A stretch of DNA of 47,283 nucleotides from assembly GCA_017470525.1 (NCBI GenBank), contig JAFUYM010000058.1:1-47283 (forward strand), written 5' to 3'. Made by a program: the position numbers and the translations under genes. Source of the stretch: Bacteroidaceae bacterium. GTDB taxonomy: Bacteria > Bacteroidota > Bacteroidia > Bacteroidales > Bacteroidaceae. Each line of letters starts with the position of its first letter. The stretch's first letter is position 1. Shown here piece after piece: positions 6,102 through 33,891 of the stretch. Below the pieces are notes generated by a model. It saw only the letters and a program-made list of their open reading frames with translations, had not been told where the DNA came from and searched no databases.

Positions 6102-7374
6102 ATGCCTTGATGCAGTACTCATGGTCAATGCAGGCTCCCGTCTCTCGCACACTGTGCATGGCAAGGATGGGGTTGCCCATATCCACGCCTCGGATGGGGA
6201 GAGAAGAGGCGAGGATGTTGCCCAGGGTGCTGCCACCTGCCACGTCGCTGTGGTTGACAAAGCGTTGGCAAGGCACACCTGCCTGTTCGCAGAGTTGCTG
6301 GAACACGGCGGCAGAAACCGCGTCGCTGGCATACTTCTGGGCAGCGTTGAACTTGATGACAGGACCACCGCCGAGCACGGGATGGTTGGTGGGGTCGTAC
6401 TTGTCGGAGTAGTTGGGATGCCATGCGTGGGCATTGTCGGCACTGACCATGAAGGCGCGTTCCACTGCCTGATAGAAACTGTCGGCATCACCGCCTTGTG
6501 CCAGCACCATGCGTTGGATGAGGCTGGCGAGGAAGGGGCTGCCGGCTCCTTGTTTGGTTTGCGAACCTGTCTCCTCGTTGTCGAAGATGGCAAGAATGCG
6601 GGTTGTCTGTGGGGTGTCCTCGCTTTCGAGGAGTGCCGTGAGTCCTGCATGCACCATCGAGAGGTCGTCGAGCCGACCTGCCGACAGGAACTCGTTGTGG
6701 GCACCGAAGGTGCAGGGTGGGGTGGTGTCGTAGAGATAGAGGTCGAAATCGAGGATTTGCGACTGCTCCACGTGCAGTTCATCGGTGATGAGGCGCATGA
6801 GCAGGTTTTCCTTCTCCAGTTCGTCGGTAACGATGCCGAGCAGGGGCTGCATGTCTTTCTGCTTGCTCAGTTTCACGCCGTCGTTCACCTCGCGGTTGAA
6901 GTGGATGGCAAGGTTGGGGATTTGCAGGAGCGGACGGCGGATGTGGAGCAGGCGTGTCGTGGGGCTCATGGCATTGTCGGAACGCAGAATCACCCGACCG
7001 GCAAGGCTCAACGGACGGTCGAACCACGTGGACATGATGGCACCGCCGTACAGTTCGGTGTTGAGTTTCACAATGCCCTTCTCACAAGTGATTTCCGCGT
7101 TCGGCTTGATGCGGAACGTGGGCGAATCGCAGTGGGCACAGATGACGTGGAACCCTGCCTCGGCAAGCGATTGACTGCCGATGTGGAAAGCGTAGATGGA
7201 GGAATCGTTCTTTGTGAAGTAGCACTTCGTGCCTGCCTCGATGCCCTTGATGGGCAGCGAAGCGTCAAGACGGCGATAGCCTTTCGCCTCCAGCAGTTCA
7301 GCCGTGGTTTTCACAGCCAAGAAGTTGACGGGAGAAAGATCCAGAAAGTGAATGAGTTGGTCGATATAGGTCAT
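6082..7374 (-). CDS. M18 family aspartyl/metallo-aminopeptidase
   Basis: This 430-residue M18 aminopeptidase is expected to remove N-terminal residues, often acidic ones, from peptides in the cytoplasm using two metal ions. The visible metal-site motifs are AHCDSPTFRIKP near residues 80-91 (His and Asp ligands), DDLSMVHAGL, FDNEETGSQ (catalytic and ligand Glu), SADNAHAWHPNY, and HSDVAGGSTLGNI near the C-terminus. Length and motif order match the family, and it ends with the usual KQFYK-like tail. It is the last gene of a minus-strand run and starts 9 bp after the AMP-binding enzyme gene, so they are probably co-transcribed. Confidence 0.93.
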   Translation of the reverse strand: MTYIDQLIHFLDLSPVNFLAVKTTAELLEAKGYRRLDASLPIKGIEAGTKCYFTKNDSSIYAFHIGSQSLAEAGFHVICAHCDSPTFRIKPNAEITCEKGIVKLNTELYGGAIMSTWFDRPLSLAGRVILRSDNAMSPTTRLLHIRRPLLQIPNLAIHFNREVNDGVKLSKQKDMQPLLGIVTDELEKENLLMRLITDELHVEQSQILDFDLYLYDTTPPCTFGAHNEFLSAGRLDDLSMVHAGLTALLESEDTPQTTRILAIFDNEETGSQTKQGAGSPFLASLIQRMVLAQGGDADSFYQAVERAFMVSADNAHAWHPNYSDKYDPTNHPVLGGGPVIKFNAAQKYASDAVSAAVFQQLCEQAGVPCQRFVNHSDVAGGSTLGNILASSLPIRGVDMGNPILAMHSVRETGACIDHEYCIKAFKQFYK

Positions 7375-7383
7375 GGGAAACAG

Positions 7384-9009
7384 TTATGTATAAAGGTATC
7401 TTCGGATGCTGCGTTTCGGTGTCTTCTCAAATTCCTTGTCCTGCACCTCGATGGCTGAGATGTTGGCAAAGGCGGGCAGGTAGGAATTGATTTGGCGTTT
7501 GTAGGTGTCGAGTTTCTGGAGGAGGGTGTCGCGGGTGAGTCCATGATGTTCCAGAGCGGGGTCGCTGACATAGACGAGGGCAACGAGTTTTTCGCCTCGC
7601 TGCACCACGACGCTTTCTTCGAAGATGGTGTGGGTCATGATGGCATCTTCAATCTCTTCGGGATAGACGTTCTGTCCGTTGGCACCCAGCAGCATGGTCT
7701 TCTTCCTGCCTCGGATGAAGATGTTGCCACGGCTGTCGATGGTGCCGAGGTCGCCTGTGTGGAGCCAGCCTTCTTCGTCGATGGCTTCGAGGGTTTCTGC
7801 CTCGTTCTTGTAGTAGCCGAGCATGACATTGGCACCCTTGGCAAGAATTTCGCCAGGCTGGTTCTGCGGGTCTTTTGAATCAATCTTCACCTCCATGCGT
7901 GGTGCCACTTTGCCACACGACCCCTTGACAAAGAGGTGCTTGTCTTCGTAGCCAATGATGGGTCCACACTCCGTCATGCCGTAGCCGACGGTGTAGGGGA
8001 AACGAATCTGATGCAGGAAATCTTCCACTTCCTTGTTGAATGCTGCGCCGCCAATGATGCACTCGTAGAAGTTGCCTCCGAGGGCGGAAAAGAGTTTGTT
8101 GCGTATCTGCCGATAAACCACTTCACGCAGGATGGGAATAGCCGTGAGGGCACGGATGTGGCGTGTGCGGAGGATGGGGAAGATTTGCTTCTGTACGATT
8201 TTCTCCAAGATGAGCGGCACAACGATGACCACTACAGGGCGGATGTCGCCAAATGCCTTGATGACCACATGGGGCGAGGGTGTCTTGGTGAGGAAGTGGA
8301 TGTGGCAGCCGATGCAGAAGGCGAAGAAGAAATCGTAGGCAAAACCGTACATGTGTGCCAAAGGCAGGATGGACAGCGTGTTGTCGCCTGGCATGAAGTC
8401 AAGCACTTCGTCGGCGAAGTGGCAGTTTGACCAGATGGAGCGGTAGGGGAGCATCACGCCCTTGCTTCGCCCTGTGGAGCCGCTGGTGTAACTGAGCAGG
8501 GCAAGGTCGTCGGGACGCTCACGGAAATAACTCACCTGGTCGGGCTGGAGGTCGGTGAAGGTGCTCATGTTGATGGCGTAAGGCTCGTCGAACATGGTGA
8601 AGTCGGCGATGTTGAGGATGCGTGCCTTGAGCCCCTTGGCATATTTTTCCCCACAAATGATAAGCGAAGATTCGGAATGTTCGTAGATATTCTGAATCTG
8701 CTCCATGTTGAACTCTGAGAGGATGGGGACGACGACTGCACCATAACTGAAGACGGCAAAGAAGGAAAGTGCCCAATGGGCATTGTTCTTGTCGCAGATG
8801 GCTATCTTGCTGCCTGGCTCGATGCCTAATTGCTGGAAAAGCCTGTGGAGACGGGCAATCATCTTTGCAGCGTCGCCATAGGTATAACTCTCGTCCGTGC
8901 CGTAGTTGGTGATGCAGGGACGGTTCCAATTTTGCCTGAGTGTATTCTCCATCATGCCAATGATGGATGTGTCGGTCGGCTTGAATAGTCTTGTTTTTGC
9001 TTTTGCCAA
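7384..9009 (-). CDS. AMP-binding enzyme, probable long-chain acyl-CoA (or acyl-ACP) synthetase
   Basis: This 541-residue adenylate-forming enzyme would activate a carboxylic acid with ATP and transfer it to CoA or a related thiol. Motifs in order are the P-loop-like YTSGSTGRSKG near residues 193-203, the substrate region up to YGMTECGP near 343, the ATP-binding TGDLG near 420, and GRKKTMLLGANGQNVYP near 432-448 with a C-terminal lysine in KTPKRSIRRY. The hydrophobic middle suits a fatty-acyl substrate. It lies between the mutarotase gene (60-bp spacer carrying three runs of five Gs) and the aminopeptidase. The exact substrate is unknown. Confidence 0.88.
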   Translation of the reverse strand: MAKAKTRLFKPTDTSIIGMMENTLRQNWNRPCITNYGTDESYTYGDAAKMIARLHRLFQQLGIEPGSKIAICDKNNAHWALSFFAVFSYGAVVVPILSEFNMEQIQNIYEHSESSLIICGEKYAKGLKARILNIADFTMFDEPYAINMSTFTDLQPDQVSYFRERPDDLALLSYTSGSTGRSKGVMLPYRSIWSNCHFADEVLDFMPGDNTLSILPLAHMYGFAYDFFFAFCIGCHIHFLTKTPSPHVVIKAFGDIRPVVVIVVPLILEKIVQKQIFPILRTRHIRALTAIPILREVVYRQIRNKLFSALGGNFYECIIGGAAFNKEVEDFLHQIRFPYTVGYGMTECGPIIGYEDKHLFVKGSCGKVAPRMEVKIDSKDPQNQPGEILAKGANVMLGYYKNEAETLEAIDEEGWLHTGDLGTIDSRGNIFIRGRKKTMLLGANGQNVYPEEIEDAIMTHTIFEESVVVQRGEKLVALVYVSDPALEHHGLTRDTLLQKLDTYKRQINSYLPAFANISAIEVQDKEFEKTPKRSIRRYLYT

Positions 9010-27308: not shown

Positions 27309-28685
27309 TTAGTCAAATCTCAAGTGTGGGAGGGAGTTGACAATGTCCACGGTTTGGGTGCTGACATTGATGACGGAGAGGAGGAGGTCGAGAATGTAGC
27401 GGGGTTTGCCGTGTTCGCGTCCCCAGTCGTTGGCATCGTTCTTGATGAGGGATTTCTTGTCAATGGAGATGCAGTAGCGTTCCAGAATCCACTCGATGGC
27501 ACTTTTGCCATTCACGATGTAGTCGTAGGCTTTTAGGGGGATGTTTTCAAGACGGATGTTGGCGTTGTAGAGGATGGCGCTCTTGTCGTCTTTGCTGCGG
27601 AACTTCATCTTGGGGTCCACACGGAAGTAGGCGTAGTCGCCTTGGTCGGCACGTTGAGCAGAGGTGATGTGTACCACCACTTCGGGATGTGGTGGCACGT
27701 TCTCGTAGTTCAGGTGGAGGTCAGCCAGTTGCTTGCCAGCCTTGTAGAATGCCATAAAGTCCTCAATGCGTTCTACGATGGGGATTCGGGGGAGTGACTT
27801 CTTCAAGTCGGCAGCGAAACGCTCACGGTAGTCCTTCGAGTGCAGCAACCCATAAACATAGTAGAAAATCATTTCCTTCGTGATGTTCTTCGCCCCACCA
27901 TAGCGGTTCCGCACCTCCTTCAATATCCAATCGGTAATGCCATCTCTGCGAATGTAGTCATCATCGGGGGTGTCATCAAAGAGCGTCTTCTGTTTGCGGG
28001 TATTCTCCTCGTAGTAGTAAAGAGGGAAGCATTGACATGCAGCATTAAATCCTAAGTCAACAATCCTATTTGCTATAAGTACAGAGTATTCTTTCGTGGC
28101 ACCCAACCCTTGAACACATATTATAATATTATCTTGTTCTTTAGTTGGATACAACTTTGGCATTTGATACATCATTTCGTTCAAAGGTCTATAGTAAAAC
28201 AGACATTGTCGGAAAAATGGGCGGTATAAGGATTCCATAACCACCCCATCTTGGTAACAATAAACTTTTTTTCGTCGGAAATCGTTCAAACAGGCTCTCG
28301 TCCAACTAAACTTCATGTCATTATATTCTATATTATCTTCAGATTCAACATTGTGAATTTGAGAATTATAGAAATCTATTGTCCGCTGCATATTGCTTTT
28401 CAGAGAAGTTTGCGAAGAATTGTAGCACCAAGCATCTCTTTGTGTTTTCAGTCCATTGCTGTAATATGGAACAAAGAAGGTCTTTTTATTGTTCTTATCA
28501 TCTTTATCTCCCAGCAATATCATCAAGTCGAAAATTCCATCCCTCACATTTATCCAATCCTTTTTCTCATTCGGTTCAATCTCCGTCCATTCCATTCTGT
28601 TGACAGAACGGAAATCGTGTATCATTTTCAGTTTTTGTTCGCGAGTCAAATAGTCGCCAATATCGTGATAATAAATTGTTGCCAT
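27309..28685 (-). CDS. Separate target-recognition (specificity) polypeptide of a Type ISP-like restriction system
   Basis: This 458-residue protein starts MATIYYHDIGDYLTREQKL. That is the segment which, in one-chain Type ISP enzymes (LlaBIII/LlaGI class), directly follows the methyltransferase domain and begins the target-recognition domain. The rest (aromatic-rich, with YRPFFRQCLFYYRPLNEM near residues 135-152 and a C-terminal helical part from about 290) matches the expected TRD layout. Together with the 1203-residue protein upstream the total is about 1660 residues, close to the family's single-chain length. It is separated from that gene by a 92-bp spacer made of A/T-rich repeats. It probably binds the other polypeptide to make the working enzyme. 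It could instead be a broken-off remnant. Confidence 0.8.
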   Translation of the reverse strand: MATIYYHDIGDYLTREQKLKMIHDFRSVNRMEWTEIEPNEKKDWINVRDGIFDLMILLGDKDDKNNKKTFFVPYYSNGLKTQRDAWCYNSSQTSLKSNMQRTIDFYNSQIHNVESEDNIEYNDMKFSWTRACLNDFRRKKVYCYQDGVVMESLYRPFFRQCLFYYRPLNEMMYQMPKLYPTKEQDNIIICVQGLGATKEYSVLIANRIVDLGFNAACQCFPLYYYEENTRKQKTLFDDTPDDDYIRRDGITDWILKEVRNRYGGAKNITKEMIFYYVYGLLHSKDYRERFAADLKKSLPRIPIVERIEDFMAFYKAGKQLADLHLNYENVPPHPEVVVHITSAQRADQGDYAYFRVDPKMKFRSKDDKSAILYNANIRLENIPLKAYDYIVNGKSAIEWILERYCISIDKKSLIKNDANDWGREHGKPRYILDLLLSVINVSTQTVDIVNSLPHLRFD

Positions 28686-28696
28686 AACATTAATTA

Positions 28697-28784
28697 TTTA
28701 TGATTAATTCGTGGATAATTTGTGATAATTTATGTTGAAGAAAAAACACGAATTGCCATGAATTAACCACGAATTTCTCATAAA
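28697..28784. repeat. Inverted cluster of 10-11 bp repeats splitting the restriction gene
   Basis: The 18-bp arms (28697-28714 and 28767-28784) pair with two mismatches. Each side is made of about three tandem 10-11 bp units built on AATTCGTGG or its complement. The right arm supplies the stop codon of the upstream gene (28778-28780), and the start of the next gene lies 11 bp beyond the left arm. Confidence 0.75.
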
Positions 28785-31700
28785 TTATTTTTTGCTTTTT
28801 TGACCAAGATGGTAATGGCAATGGGTGTACGAGAGCCAGAGCCAAAAATTTTGCCACCTTCTTTGCGAGACAGTTCGCCGCTGGTGCGTTGATTACCTCG
28901 CAAGTTGAAAACATAGATTTTGTCAAACTCTTTTTCGAAGCATTGACGCATACCATCTTGTGCGTTGCCATCAATCCATGCACCATTGCTGATGAATGCC
29001 ACAATACCACCATCAGGACATTGGGCAATGCGGTCGCTTGCCCAACGGAAAGCCTTAATGTAACTGTCGTATAGAGAGTTTTTGTTGGTTGCGTTGGTAT
29101 GAGCAGCATACGTGTCCGCTACACGCTTGTCAAGATGGGCATATTTTAAGTTTTGTGCATTGTCGTTTGCCGAGTTCTGTCCTACCGAGTACGGCGGATT
29201 CCCGATGATGACCCTCACAGGTGCTTTCTTCTGCTTAATCACACGCTCCGAGTTTTCGGGCAGGAGTTGGGAGAAGATGTCGTTGTCTCCATGTTCGTTG
29301 AGTTGGAAGGTATCGGTCAGGCAGATGCCGTCGTAAGGCAGATAGTCGGGTTGGTCGCTACCCATGATGTCGTGATAGACGCTCTCGATGTTGATGTCGG
29401 CAATGTAATATGCCAAGAGGACGATTTCGTTGCAATGAATCTCGTTCTTGTACTTGCGTCGCAAGTCTTCCTTCCTGATGAGACCGCTCTGCATCAGGCG
29501 AGTGATGAACGTGCCTGTCCCCACGAAGGGGTCGAGGATGTGAACATTCTCTTCTGTCAACGACGTGTTAAATTCGTCACGCAAGATGTCTTCAACTGAA
29601 TGAATGATGAAATCGACGCACTCCACAGGCGTATAGACAATGCCCAGTTTCTCTACAGTCAAAGGAAACGCACCCTTGAAGAACTTCTCGTAAAGATTCT
29701 TGATGACCGTCTGTTTGCCCTCCAGATTGTCGATGTCGCCCACGTTGACCCGTACCGACTGATAGAACTTATCCAGCACTTGCGTGTCCATCTCGAAACC
29801 TTCCGTTTCGAGAAACTCCAGCATGAACTGCATCGACTTGCTCACGGCGTTGTTATTCACAAACTGATAGTCGCTGAACAGGGCATCGAACACGGGACGC
29901 ATAATCATGTGCTGTGCCAACATTTCGATGGCTTGTCCCTCGTCCACGCTGGGGTTGATGTTGCGTTGCAAACCTGCCACAAACTCTTGGAAATGCTCTC
30001 GTGCTGAAGGGTTCTCCTTCACCAATCGAGTGATGCGCTCAATGAACTTGCGGGCAATCTCACCCACCGACTTCGCCCAATTCTCCCAGTAGAGTTTGTC
30101 GCCCACCTTCTCCACCAGTTTGGCATAGATGCCATCCTGCAAAGCACCGAAACGCAGTTCCAACTGCTGTGCCACTTGGGCAGAGTCAAGCATAATGGCA
30201 TCACCCTCGTCGCCCACTTCGGCGGCATGAGTCGAGTACACATCCTCCGCCATCGAATAACTGCCACTCGGCACACCGCCCGCAATGATTTTGTCGGGGC
30301 GCTTTTTGTTCAGATTGATTTGGTTGACATGGGCATTGAATGCCTCGTCGTGACTGCGAAGAGCATTGAGAATGGTCCATACCACCTTGAACCGCTCGTT
30401 GTCGGCAAGTGCCTGTTCGGGGGTGATGTCACTTGGCACGATGACAGGAATGATGATGTAGCCATACTTCTTTTCCTTGTCGGTGTTCTTTCCGAAGGTA
30501 CGCATCACACGCCCCACACTCTGCACCACCTCCACCTCGCTGTTGCGTGGCGAGAGGAAGATGACGGCATCGAGGGCTGGCACATCCACACCCTCGCTCA
30601 GACACCGCACATTGCAGAGCACACGACACTCATTCGGGTCGTCCGCCTCGGCTTTCACCCATGCCAATCTCTCGTTGCGTGTGGCAGCATCCATCGAGCC
30701 GTCGATGTGCTGCGCCCGAATATTCACCACCCTGTCCGCCTCTTGTTCCGAGAGGTCTTTCTTGTAGTCGCTGCTCACCTGCGAAAAGTAGCGGGCAATC
30801 TGTGTGGAAGAGAAGTTGGGATTGCTCTTGGTGGGGTTGATGGTTTGGCAAAACGCCACCGCACGACGCATCAGCACAGGGTCTTGCTCACGGGTGATGC
30901 CGTGGTCGCCTTTGATGCGTTTGGAGAGTCCGTTGATGCACCCAATCAGTTTGGTGGCATCGTCAAACTGCAACTCCTTCGGTTTTTCGCTCTCGGGGGC
31001 AGCATTGTATTGTGCCTTGATGTTGTCTGCCATGCTCTTGGGGATGTCTTCTTCGCTCACGGTGAGCACCAGTACCTTGTAGTCGCACAGAAGCCCTTGG
31101 CTGACGGCATCGTTGAAGGTGAGGCGGTGGAACTCCTTGCCGTAGATGGTTTCATCGTCCATCGAACAGAGCACATCGTCGTTTTCGGCAGCCTTCACCT
31201 TGACCGACTCTCGGTAGAGTCGAGGGGTGGCTGTCATGTAGAGTCGCCGACGGGCAGGAATGCGCCCGTTGTCATGCACTTTGGTGAAGTTCGACTCATC
31301 ACGGTCTTTCAGTTTCACACCAGTGGTGCGGTGTGCCTCGTCACAGATGCAGAGGTCCACCTCTCTGCCATATTCGTGGAGGGCATCGCTCACCACATCA
31401 ATGCTCTGATAGGTGGAGAAGATGACGATACGCACAGGCTCCTTCTCATAGCGGTGCAACTGTCGAAGCACGGACTTCACGTTGGTGGTGGCAGGCACAG
31501 CCAGTTCCTGTATGCTGGCATCCTCGCTGTCGTTGTCCTGCATCTTGCGGCTCACTTTGGCATCGGAGCAGATACAGATGGCACGCATCTCGTCGGTGCG
31601 GTCGCTCATCCATGCGTTGAGGGTCTGCCCCAACAGGGCGATACTCGGCACAAGGAAGAGGACAAAGCCGTCCTTCTCGGTGAGTTGTTCCGCTATTTTC

Positions 31701-32389
31701 AGCGAGGTGTAAGTTTTGCCTGTGCCACACGCCATGATGAGTTTGCCTCGTTCGTTGCCCTCTTCTACAAAGTGGCGATACGTGTCCGCCATGGCACGGA
31801 GTTGGTGTGCACGAGGTTGTTTGCCAGAGAGTTGTGCCTTCTTGCCATACAAGCCTTGATGGAGTTTCTGCCAATCGACAGACGAACTTTCCAACTCGAA
31901 GAGGTTAATTTTGTTGAACGGCAGCGTGAGGTTGGTGATGGCTTTCTGGGCGTTGATGCCCCACGGGCAACGAGTGGTTTCCACCCAAACAAGGTTGCTG
32001 AAACCGCGTGTCTGGAAAGTCTCATCTTCGGTGAAGGTGCGGATGGAATTGGCGAGAAAACTATCCACCATGCCTTTCTCGATGGTGGTGTCCTCGTCAT
32101 AGCATTTGCACTGAATCGCCCAATAATCGCCCGTGTCGGTACGAGCCACGAGGTCGATGCCGAGGTCGGTGCCTCCAAAGTCTTTTCGGCCAGGAAACTC
32201 TTCCCACAACCACACCCGCTCGAGGTTGGCATAGCGTGGGTCGGTGAGGAACCAGAGTTTCATCAGCCGTTCGAAATCCTGCCCCTTCTCACGTTCGGTG
32301 AGAGATTTCTGACGGATTTCGGACAGAATATCAAGAATGCCATACGTTGGTGCAGGGGCATGGCTCGCCTGTGATAGATTCTCTTGCAT
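28778..32389 (-). CDS. Type ISP-like restriction enzyme: nuclease, SF2 helicase and adenine methyltransferase
   Basis: This 1203-residue protein joins three activities. Residues 60-110 hold an Mrr-like PD-(D/E)xK nuclease (GGTDLGIDLVAR, then AIQCKC at 91-96). Residues 190-700 hold a superfamily 2 ATPase, with Walker A ACGTGKT near 220-226, DEAH at 350-353, TATPRLYRES and the arginine motif QSVGRVMRTFG. Residues about 850-1200 hold an N6-adenine methyltransferase with motif I DPFVGTGTF near 953-961 and motif IV NPPY near 1064-1067. The order matches single-chain Type ISP enzymes that translocate along DNA, cut unmodified phage DNA and methylate the host site. The chain stops where the recognition domain should follow; that part is encoded by the next gene. 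Expression probably depends on the structured leader at 32393-32606. Confidence 0.88.
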   Translation of the reverse strand: MQENLSQASHAPAPTYGILDILSEIRQKSLTEREKGQDFERLMKLWFLTDPRYANLERVWLWEEFPGRKDFGGTDLGIDLVARTDTGDYWAIQCKCYDEDTTIEKGMVDSFLANSIRTFTEDETFQTRGFSNLVWVETTRCPWGINAQKAITNLTLPFNKINLFELESSSVDWQKLHQGLYGKKAQLSGKQPRAHQLRAMADTYRHFVEEGNERGKLIMACGTGKTYTSLKIAEQLTEKDGFVLFLVPSIALLGQTLNAWMSDRTDEMRAICICSDAKVSRKMQDNDSEDASIQELAVPATTNVKSVLRQLHRYEKEPVRIVIFSTYQSIDVVSDALHEYGREVDLCICDEAHRTTGVKLKDRDESNFTKVHDNGRIPARRRLYMTATPRLYRESVKVKAAENDDVLCSMDDETIYGKEFHRLTFNDAVSQGLLCDYKVLVLTVSEEDIPKSMADNIKAQYNAAPESEKPKELQFDDATKLIGCINGLSKRIKGDHGITREQDPVLMRRAVAFCQTINPTKSNPNFSSTQIARYFSQVSSDYKKDLSEQEADRVVNIRAQHIDGSMDAATRNERLAWVKAEADDPNECRVLCNVRCLSEGVDVPALDAVIFLSPRNSEVEVVQSVGRVMRTFGKNTDKEKKYGYIIIPVIVPSDITPEQALADNERFKVVWTILNALRSHDEAFNAHVNQINLNKKRPDKIIAGGVPSGSYSMAEDVYSTHAAEVGDEGDAIMLDSAQVAQQLELRFGALQDGIYAKLVEKVGDKLYWENWAKSVGEIARKFIERITRLVKENPSAREHFQEFVAGLQRNINPSVDEGQAIEMLAQHMIMRPVFDALFSDYQFVNNNAVSKSMQFMLEFLETEGFEMDTQVLDKFYQSVRVNVGDIDNLEGKQTVIKNLYEKFFKGAFPLTVEKLGIVYTPVECVDFIIHSVEDILRDEFNTSLTEENVHILDPFVGTGTFITRLMQSGLIRKEDLRRKYKNEIHCNEIVLLAYYIADINIESVYHDIMGSDQPDYLPYDGICLTDTFQLNEHGDNDIFSQLLPENSERVIKQKKAPVRVIIGNPPYSVGQNSANDNAQNLKYAHLDKRVADTYAAHTNATNKNSLYDSYIKAFRWASDRIAQCPDGGIVAFISNGAWIDGNAQDGMRQCFEKEFDKIYVFNLRGNQRTSGELSRKEGGKIFGSGSRTPIAITILVKKAKNNL

Positions 32390-32392
32390 GGT

Positions 32393-32606
32393 TGGTCGGA
32401 CGCTTTACAAATCTAAATCGATGGTTAGGTTAGTATGTCAGAGACACTGACGGACACAAAGAAAGCGTACCACTTTCCGTGTTTCATTCCTAAGTTCAGG
32501 GTTGCGTCCGACCAAAGATTTAACCTTTGCAATGAAATGAAAGGAAAGGGTACGCCTAAACATAGGCGTATCCCATTCCTCCGGTTCATTGCATGTCTGG
32601 TCGGAC
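32393..32606 (-). promoter_or_regulatory. Structured leader with competing inverted repeats before the restriction gene
   Basis: Three related arms are present: 32393-32403, 32504-32514 and 32598-32606. The middle arm is complementary to both others (11 bp and 9 bp). The middle and outer arms also bracket a rod of further stems: 32528-32536 with 32585-32593, 32542-32550 with 32572-32580 (one mismatch), and 32551-32558 with 32563-32570. The first arm lies 3 nt upstream of the ATG, so pairing it with the middle arm would cover the ribosome site. The switching role is inferred; the pairings are seen. Confidence 0.6.
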
Positions 32607-32615
32607 TATTTTGAA

Positions 32616-32765
32616 CTTAGAACCTTCAGAATTGAATACGTTGATTCAATGTGCCACAATGTCTGCTTGCGTGGGCACGAAGTGGGTGCCGAACGCTTGC
32701 AAGGGCAAATGTACGGAAAAAAAGGAAAAGGGGAAAAGAAAGGGGTGAGTTTTTGTGAAAAAAGA
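32616..32765 (-). repeat. Duplicated promoter/leader sequence, copy 1
   Basis: About 150 bp nearly identical to 33651-33800 in the same orientation, with weaker similarity continuing to about 32833. On the minus strand it has a -7-like TACATTTG (32706-32713) and a hairpin-forming stretch, so it probably supplies the promoter and early leader of the restriction operon. Confidence 0.75.
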
Positions 32766-32839
32766 GGGTTTATGAATGGAAAATGGAGGTGTTTTGACGT
32801 GAAGAGGGAGAAAAAGGGGGCAGAGGAGTGGGGTATGTC

Positions 32840-33640
32840 CTATTTCAACAGTTTTCTTTCTCCATCTCCTTCCAGCACCTTCATTTGCTGAATGGCTATA
32901 TGGTTGAGTTTCAGGAGCCGTTCACGTTGGGCATTCCTTCGTTGATAAGCACAGCATTGATGTTCTCCATGTTCGAGAGGCAGATGAGTTCGTTGATAGT
33001 GGCGTAGTCGCGAATGTTGCCTTGGAGTGTGGGGTTGGCATCGCGCCATTGCTTGGCAGTCATGCCAAACATTGCCACATTGAGCACATCGGCTTCCTCC
33101 GCATAGATGATGCTGGCTTGCAAAGGGGTGACCTCATCCGGTACCAGATGGCGTTTTTATGGCATCCGTATGAATGCGGTAGTTGATTTTGGAGAGTTCC
33201 CGTTTGGCTGTCCACCCCAACAGTTTTTGTTCTTCAGCCTTCAGCCGTTGGTATTCTTTGACGAGCAACAGTTGAAACTTCGGACTTATCCACATTCCGA
33301 AATGATAGGCGATATCACGATGAGCATACGTTCCGCCATAACGTCCTGCCTTAGACACAATACCTATCGCCTTTGTCTTTTCTATCCAATTCTTCACGGA
33401 AAGCACAAAGTTGTTGCTACCTGCCATATTTTTAATTGTACCGAATTCGGTACAATTAAAAATAGGATTATACAGCATCTCCCATTCTCCGAGGTATTCT
33501 ATTGTACTCTTCAAACTAAGCCAACGAAATATGATGTGCTCTTGCATCTGGCTACGAGCCATGTCGGTCAAAGAAATATAGTCCTCATCATGATTCGAAA
33601 TGACCGTTATTTCCGTGTCTTGTACTGTGATTTTTGCCAT
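32840..33640 (-). pseudogene. KilA-N domain protein gene broken by two frameshifts
   Basis: Reading from the ATG at 33640 (MAKITVQDTEITVISNHDED) gives a KilA-N DNA-binding domain (SLTDMARSQ, WLSLKSTIEYLGEWE, FGMWISPKFQLLLVKEYQR), a family common in phages and mobile elements. The frame breaks near 33149-33153, where one extra base is present. It continues in the next frame (VPDEVTPLQASIIYAEEADV and so on) and breaks again near 32928-32931, where one base is missing. The original frame is then restored to the stop at 32840. The two changes cancel. A full product would be about 266 residues. Loss of function is likely unless the changes are read errors. A 38-bp perfect palindrome lies inside. 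Confidence 0.8.
33427..33464. repeat. 38-bp perfect palindrome inside the KilA-N pseudogene
   Basis: The sequence is self-complementary with no loop from 33427 to 33464, centred on CCGAATTCGG. It encodes the peptide NPIFNCTEFGTIKNM region in the original frame. Confidence 0.9.
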
Positions 33641-33650
33641 ATTCTTTATG

Positions 33651-33800
33651 CTTAGAACCTTCAGAATTGAATACGTTGATTCAATGTGCCACAATGTCTG
33701 CTTGCGTGGGCACGGGGGTGGGTGCCGAACGCTTGCAAGGGCAAATGTACGGAAAAAATGGGAATGGGGGAAGGGTTGGGATGAGTTTTTGTGAAAAAAG
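33651..33800 (-). repeat. Duplicated promoter/leader sequence, copy 2
   Basis: Direct repeat of 32616-32765, ending 10 bp before the KilA-N ATG. It has the -7-like TACATTTG at 33742-33749 (minus strand); no clear TTTG box is seen 20 bp further upstream. It looks like the promoter and about 100 nt of leader for the KilA-N gene. Confidence 0.75.
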
Positions 33801-33891
33801 GGGTGTTCTTCGTTTGTGGGAGTTCGTTTTTGAGGTTTTGGAGGGAGAAAAATGAAATGAGGAGGGAGGATTGTGCGTTTTTTCGTTTTTC

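Follow-up and report, generated by a model that had tools for sequence, protein, structure and literature searches.

The closest solved relatives of the two proteins described here, P1 and P2, are LlaBIII (4xqk), LlaGI (5ffj), and DrdV (7lo5). LlaGI and LlaBIII have the same domains in the same order as the locus analyzed here and are each a single polypeptide (PMC4872093), whereas in our locus the chain is interrupted within the methyltransferase. DrdV is a fused relative that has the methyltransferase-recognition part in common with P1 and P2, but this chain of 1029 residues aligns from P1 residue 796 onward and leaves the motor part unmatched. In H. pylori, HP0667-HP0669 is a Type ISP gene cluster that, like our locus, is divided into several ORFs; two frameshifts are responsible there, and HP0669, with methyltransferase and specificity domain together, is an active methyltransferase alone (PMC3936762). 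It differs from our locus both in the nature of its breaks and in keeping those two functions unseparated.

Two further groups of enzymes offer partial parallels. M.AquI and M.EcoHK31I are methyltransferases of the cytosine-5 class that are not known to carry a nuclease or motor. They consist of two polypeptides cut inside the fold (PMC3404938). They thus resemble the enzyme described here as natural two-chain methyltransferases cut within the fold, and differ from it in class and in break points. A separate recognition chain beside a catalytic chain, as in our locus, is found in the Type I HsdM/HsdS and the Type IIB BcgI/BsaXI (RM + S) systems; the methyltransferase fold of these is complete within the M or RM chain, whereas our recognition chain bears a methyltransferase strand and has one Type_ISP_C domain. 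When HsdM of EcoKI is fused to HsdS, full in vivo activity is retained (PMC6158711). Giving restriction enzymes new specificity is described as an unaccomplished challenge (PMC4872093). Among the papers listed from open-licence PMC text, no title or beginning of an abstract described a two-chain Type ISP enzyme.

The locus lies in a contig of 47,283 nucleotides from a Bacteroidaceae bacterium (JAFUYM010000058.1), hereafter the window, and its features are listed in Table 1. The complete Type ISP domain set is present and in order, comprising an Mrr nuclease, SF2 helicase, coupler, N6 methyltransferase, and Type_ISP_C domain, and it is distributed over two ORFs. P1 has 1203 residues and runs from ATG to TGA, and Pfam reports Mrr_cat_2, ResIII/Helicase_C, ISP_coupler, and N6_Mtase/Eco57I on it; P2 has 458 residues, its own ATG, and a single Type_ISP_C domain (PF18135, E 3.5e-106). 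They are in different frames, with a stop, a repeat, and a new start in between. The single polypeptide that gives the SP of ISP its name is thus lacking, the two-ORF layout being common to three species, and the locus is not a Type I (M + S + R) system either, which would have two recognition domains in HsdS and a separate HsdR, since it has one Type_ISP_C domain in P2 and has nuclease and motor both on P1. P2 lies downstream of a hairpin of about -30 kcal/mol; a sigma-70-type scan of positions 28500-29000 gave no promoter match ahead of P2, Bacteroidota promoters falling outside that scan, and the same interval yielded no terminator in the gap by scan. Upstream, the enzyme adjoins a KilA-N gene (33134-33694, labeled PDC-S22 by PADLOC) around which there is a direct repeat of ~150 nt (32616-32767 and 33651-33803; 64 nt at 100% and 86 nt at 88% identity) that overlaps the 5′ end of the gene. 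The KilA-N segment between the direct repeats looks as if it had been inserted or duplicated.

Table 1. Features of the two-ORF locus and adjoining DNA, in window coordinates.
Feature	Position	Strand	Basis
P1, large subunit with nuclease, helicase, coupler, and the larger part of the methyltransferase	28778..32389	-	ORF and Pfam
Mrr-family nuclease domain, P1 residues 49-179	31853..32245	-	PF13156, E 3.2e-37
SF2 helicase-like translocase, P1 residues 191-630	30500..31819	-	PF04851, PF00271
ISP coupler, P1 residues 767-890	29720..30091	-	PF22240, E 2.3e-46
N6-adenine methyltransferase minus the strand after the loop, P1 residues 891-1203	28781..29719	-	PF02384/PF07669; strand map of fused relative
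Palindromic dispersed repeat in the gap	28692..28789	-	Fold energy, genome copies, copy alignment
P2, predicted free recognition subunit, starting at its own ATG	27309..28685	-	PF18135; model mean pLDDT 85.7
P2 residues 1-50, strand and next helix, assigned to the methyltransferase domain	28536..28685	-	LlaBIII alignment, model of fused relative
P2 residues ~41-220, block exchanged in L033	28026..28565	-	Block identities
Upstream DNA common to split loci (L117 to 32723, L118 to 32820)	32390..32820	-	Comparison

The position of the break can be placed by comparison with LlaBIII, to which P1 residues 20-1199 align over residues 17-1149 (E 6.8e-256) and P2 residues 3-455 over residues 1156-1574 (E 3.9e-74). 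LlaBIII enters its recognition domain at residue 1205 (PMC4872093), which corresponds in the alignment to P2 residue ~50. For L061, a fused relative from Prevotella ruminicola KHT3, the AlphaFold model (mean pLDDT 73.3, pTM 0.57) is structurally closest to LlaGI and LlaBIII and has a strand (331-338, ITITMLVK), a loop (339-346, NPSKHENA), and a second strand (347-352, TIYYYD), with pLDDT of 91 and 85 for blocks 331-340 and 341-350, and the break in the window maps onto this loop. From the DSSP labels, the closeness of the strands, and the fold of the family, we read the two as a predicted hairpin in the methyltransferase sheet. When P2 is modeled alone it is confident from about residue 50 onward, while its first 50 residues are low (block means 48-66) with the strand unformed; P1-P2 binding is beyond the reach of such single-chain models. 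By the alignment and the models, then, the methyltransferase domain is itself divided, some 50 residues ahead of the recognition domain, such that P1 would comprise the methyltransferase up to the first strand and P2 the second strand together with the recognition domain, P2 carrying a methyltransferase strand because the cut sits in the loop between two of them. The earlier note on this DNA correctly described two ORFs with separate starts and stops, as the coordinates and Pfam domains agree, but its placement of the break exactly at the domain border has to be revised, and it overlooked the palindromic repeat occupying the gap. In the window, as in the related loci L059, L033, and L039, the P2 start codon stands at a position that is Lys in 21 of the 27 fused relatives checked, out of 35 fused loci with eight left out of this tally.

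The split is not confined to the window, as a search of contigs from genomes with P2 gave 41 loci, and at the junction 35 of these are fused, three are split (L059, L033, and L039), one is at a contig edge (L034), and two are fragments (L067 and L069). Some loci with a fused junction are interrupted elsewhere, including L049, L056, L062, L065, and L066, and in L065 (positions 7230-8800) the recognition domain is interrupted by ~1.3 kb with an ORF on the opposite strand. The earlier note had suggested looking for the same split in other genomes, and it is found in the closest two of the 41 loci, those of UBA4359 (L059, G014) and RUG13499 (L033, G025), so that the window is not a lone broken copy among single-chain homologues. 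The repeat, the TGA, and the ATG are the same in all three species. In a survey of the genus, four of 45 genomes have a match at E ≤1e-30, three of them split and one (G032) fused. The settings differ, since none of the window neighbor genes tested occurs in the 19 kb that make up each of the split loci L117 and L118, and the enzyme is the only unit common to these two; with the flanks of all three differing, P1 and P2 have therefore been kept together in three genomic settings.

Where no block was exchanged, both ORFs have low dN/dS. Between the window and L059, P1 has dN 0.036 and dS 0.84 (dN/dS 0.042) and P2 has dN 0.063 and dS 0.97 (dN/dS 0.065). The corresponding values between the window and L033 are 0.039, 0.86, and 0.046 for P1 and 0.20, 1.04, and 0.19 for P2, and between L059 and L033 they are dN 0.016 and dS 0.34 for P1 and dN 0.20, dS 0.70, and dN/dS 0.28 for P2. 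The high P2 ratios with L033 (0.19-0.28) are due to an exchanged recognition block. Taken separately, the nuclease, helicase, coupler, and methyltransferase of P1 each give dN/dS ratios of 0.023-0.050 in comparisons with the window and of 0.023-0.089 when L059 is compared with L033. A neutrally evolving P1 at the divergence of the window from L059 would be expected to have acquired ~46 stops (minimum 27 in 200 simulations), and the number observed is 0; neither stops nor frameshifts occur in P1 or P2 across the three species.

The exchanged block is evident from the comparison of L059 with L033, in which P1 is 97% identical; the 20-residue blocks of P2 are 89-100% identical, except those within residues ~41-220, where identity falls to 15-60%. 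Among 38 aligned sequences, residues 60-210 of the L033 P2 come closest to those of L030, a fused enzyme, with 52% identity. Hence, as judged from these identities, nearly one and the same P1 occurs with two different recognition blocks. This lends partial support to the idea, put forward in the earlier note, that a free subunit permits the exchange of specificity. The changed block in L033 agrees with it, but L056 is a comparable mosaic (39% and then 84%) with a fused junction, its gene being broken 92 residues further on, and specificity exchange is therefore not peculiar to the split form. Also contrary to that idea, recognition genes are single, with no second one in G000, G014, or G025 at E 1e-3 (one match each, at completeness of 83, 83, and 92%).

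The gap of 92 nt from the TGA of P1 to the ATG of P2 is nearly all palindrome. This element of ~98 nt (-30.6 kcal/mol, z -5.2, with 0 of 200 shuffles equally stable) contains the P1 stop codon and ends just ahead of the P2 start codon. A 111-nt query gave 35 matches at ~23 places in the window genome by hand count, the window copy included and some partial. Among the other copies, 21 were examined, of which 18 lie clear of any ORF of ≥80 residues and three overlap one. With many similar palindromic copies that are mostly intergenic, the insert resembles REP- or MITE-type elements. No Rfam family matches it at the gathering threshold. The window genome has one Y1_Tnp match (26.2 bits, cut-off 23), on contig C72, for which no palindrome copy is listed. 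The family is present in G014, G025, G003, and G017 and was not found in G026, G032, G058, or G118. Because most copies are intergenic, the repeat may be later than the split. A stretch of 63 nt comprising the loop and right arm (28691-28753) is identical in the three species, at a gene dS of ~0.85 against the window, and the one orthologous control copy of the palindrome has differences all along its length. The identity of this stretch may reflect constraint or gene conversion.

Free recognition domains cut at the same loop also occur elsewhere. We examined PF18135 domains in 395 genomes drawn from the class and 395 drawn from the phylum, the two draws partly overlapping, and counted by hand ~33 near-complete domains in the former and ~94 in the latter. 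Besides the window, the free domains that lie inside a contig and are cut at the loop are those of G538 in the class draw and of G883, G865, and G911 in the phylum draw; G296, from the class draw, is also free and loop-cut, its domain being interrupted by DUF559. With so few in both draws, the split form is therefore rare. The locus of G538 (L124) has an ISP large subunit, then a 23S_rRNA_IVP (S23) gene, a RhuM gene, and a recognition gene of 485 residues whose ATG overlaps the RhuM stop. Pfam gives the nuclease, motor, and coupler of this large subunit and leaves the methyltransferase unreported, and the motifs DPFTGTGTF and NPPY are seen in the translation beside repeat-like and masked stretches. 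Copies of a short peptide (SLNRQ...) form an in-frame array within this methyltransferase. In G296 (L127) a methyltransferase is followed by a YhcG nuclease gene and a recognition gene that overlaps it, and in G883 (L134) a methyltransferase is followed by DUF559 and the recognition gene. Pfam reports neither nuclease nor motor on the methyltransferase ORF of L127 or L134, and these are therefore relatives rather than Type ISP enzymes. The DUF559 domain of L127 (5001-6794) is in frame within the recognition protein, and the split site of L134 holds another DUF559 gene.

The locus of G865 (L135) has a frameshifted methyltransferase, a Bro-N gene (25.7 bits against a cut-off of 25.6), and a recognition gene one base later, and that of G911 (L136) has Bro-N and a recognition gene with the methyltransferase reduced to a tail of 35 residues; with these two damaged, some splits evidently do decay. 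At the loop cuts of L124, L127, and L135 the genes overlap or have gaps of ≤18 nt. In L039 the recognition gene has its ATG at the same residue as in the window, an IS200-like transposase ORF lies ahead of it, and the contig begins there, so that any large subunit would lie beyond its edge. When 61 recognition domains are placed on a tree, the nine split rows need five state changes, of which at least four are forced by the starred branches, the tree being made by a quick method with some long branches and the changes being either gains or losses. Taken together, the sequences suggest that the loop tolerates interruption and that related enzymes have been opened there on more than one occasion, frequently with a small accessory gene lodged between the two parts.

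Several candidates were set aside in arriving at this tally. The short recognition frames of L111-L115 are at contig ends and those of G540, G293, G754 (twice), G599, and G755 at contig starts, while in G821 (L137) the methyltransferase is broken elsewhere, as it is in G465 (L125) as far as the ORF list shows. The tally also excludes L123, L126, L128, L129, L138, L143, L144, and most short matches to part of the profile. Plasmids gave 254 matching records, and among the 40 listed six have no annotated gene; the four of these that were examined (L193-L196) are fused at the loop, with the frames of L193 and L196 stopping later, within the recognition domain. Three phage records matched. A second split point, within the recognition domain at profile position ~182 and with overlapping ORFs, occurs in three loci of one genus (L139, L140, and L141, from G917, G804, and G711). 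In L120, L121, and L122 (G003, G026, and G017) the enzyme is replaced by an ORF of 542 residues, which is sulfatase/EptA-like by Pfam (scanned in L120) and is flanked by a match to the upstream region of the enzyme and by a short 3′ tail of P2 of ~23-32 codons. An HU gene lies beside it in all three loci and an ATPase gene in L120 and L121, and this site seems to have exchanged its content.

We consider the window locus to be a functional two-chain Type ISP restriction-modification enzyme with a probability of roughly 0.74, and the two-subunit form suggested by the earlier note is well supported by the shared split and the low dN/dS. Points that weigh against it are the position of P2 behind the hairpin with no sigma-70-type match ahead of it, the raised P2 dN/dS in comparisons with L033, and the decay of L135 and L136. 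The competing explanation that retains most weight, although we regard it as very unlikely, is a decaying pseudogene, in which insertion of the repeat disrupted the gene and its parts are being lost. Repeat insertion typically breaks genes, fragments of this family exist (L067, L069, and L116), L136 has lost its partner gene, and L135 has a frameshift. However, the break is common to three species at dS of 0.84-1.04 in comparisons with the window, both ORFs are open, and dN/dS is 0.042-0.046 for P1 and 0.065 for P2 in the pair without the exchanged block; on the split in sister species and these low values we reject a lone pseudogene, and they largely refute decay. Ranked next, and improbable to a similar degree, is that the two products have separate activities, P1 being kept for another use without sequence-specific function and P2 acting in some other role. 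L136, a free recognition gene with no nearby methyltransferase, offers a precedent but no direct support, while every domain of P1 is conserved, the methyltransferase included, P2 retains a methyltransferase strand, and the two genes stay adjacent in each of their genomic settings.

A strong hairpin around the stop, together with the 63 nt that are invariant in three species, could suggest that ribosomes bypass or shift frame across the gap and make one chain with no free subunit. This would require a skip of 92 nt plus a change of frame, whole genes occupy the gap in other splits, and an in-frame ATG opens P2 in each of the three species, with L039 having one at the corresponding position; given this conserved ATG, programmed frameshifting or bypass is unlikely, and we place it below both of the previous explanations. 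An assembly artefact is the least probable of all. L059, L033, and L039 come from metagenome assemblies and the window genome is a draft of 83 contigs, which might raise that concern for the first two of these and for the window, but one junction recurs in three species with ordinary divergence around it and with different flanks.

For the functional two-chain enzyme, we propose that P1 and P2 are made from one shared message, with P2 translated from its own ATG. P2 would bind P1 by supplying the missing methyltransferase strand, a form of fragment complementation, and this assembly would rebuild the methyltransferase-recognition clamp around DNA. The complex would then methylate its target and, on unmodified DNA, would translocate and cleave like LlaGI and LlaBIII. 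Type ISP systems are characterized by ATP-driven translocation, cleavage, and long-range communication, and by the methylation of a single asymmetric site. The repeat would either have created the split or have settled in an existing gap.

More broadly, the loop before the last methyltransferase strand might be where Type ISP and related methyltransferase-recognition enzymes are repeatedly opened, and might be filled by mobile or accessory DNA, for which the candidates are the palindromic repeat, S23 with RhuM, YhcG, DUF559, Bro-N, and possibly the IS200-like element. Such openings would yield catalytic and free recognition subunits that reassemble by strand complementation, and would represent an evolutionary route to a Type I-like M plus S arrangement taken in several separate lineages, a proposal for which we judge the odds to be even. 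Type ISP enzymes are defined by their single chain, and a natural break with a separate recognition chain, if true, would be a place for specificity swaps. Repeated splits at one loop would provide a testable path from single-chain to Type I-like enzymes.
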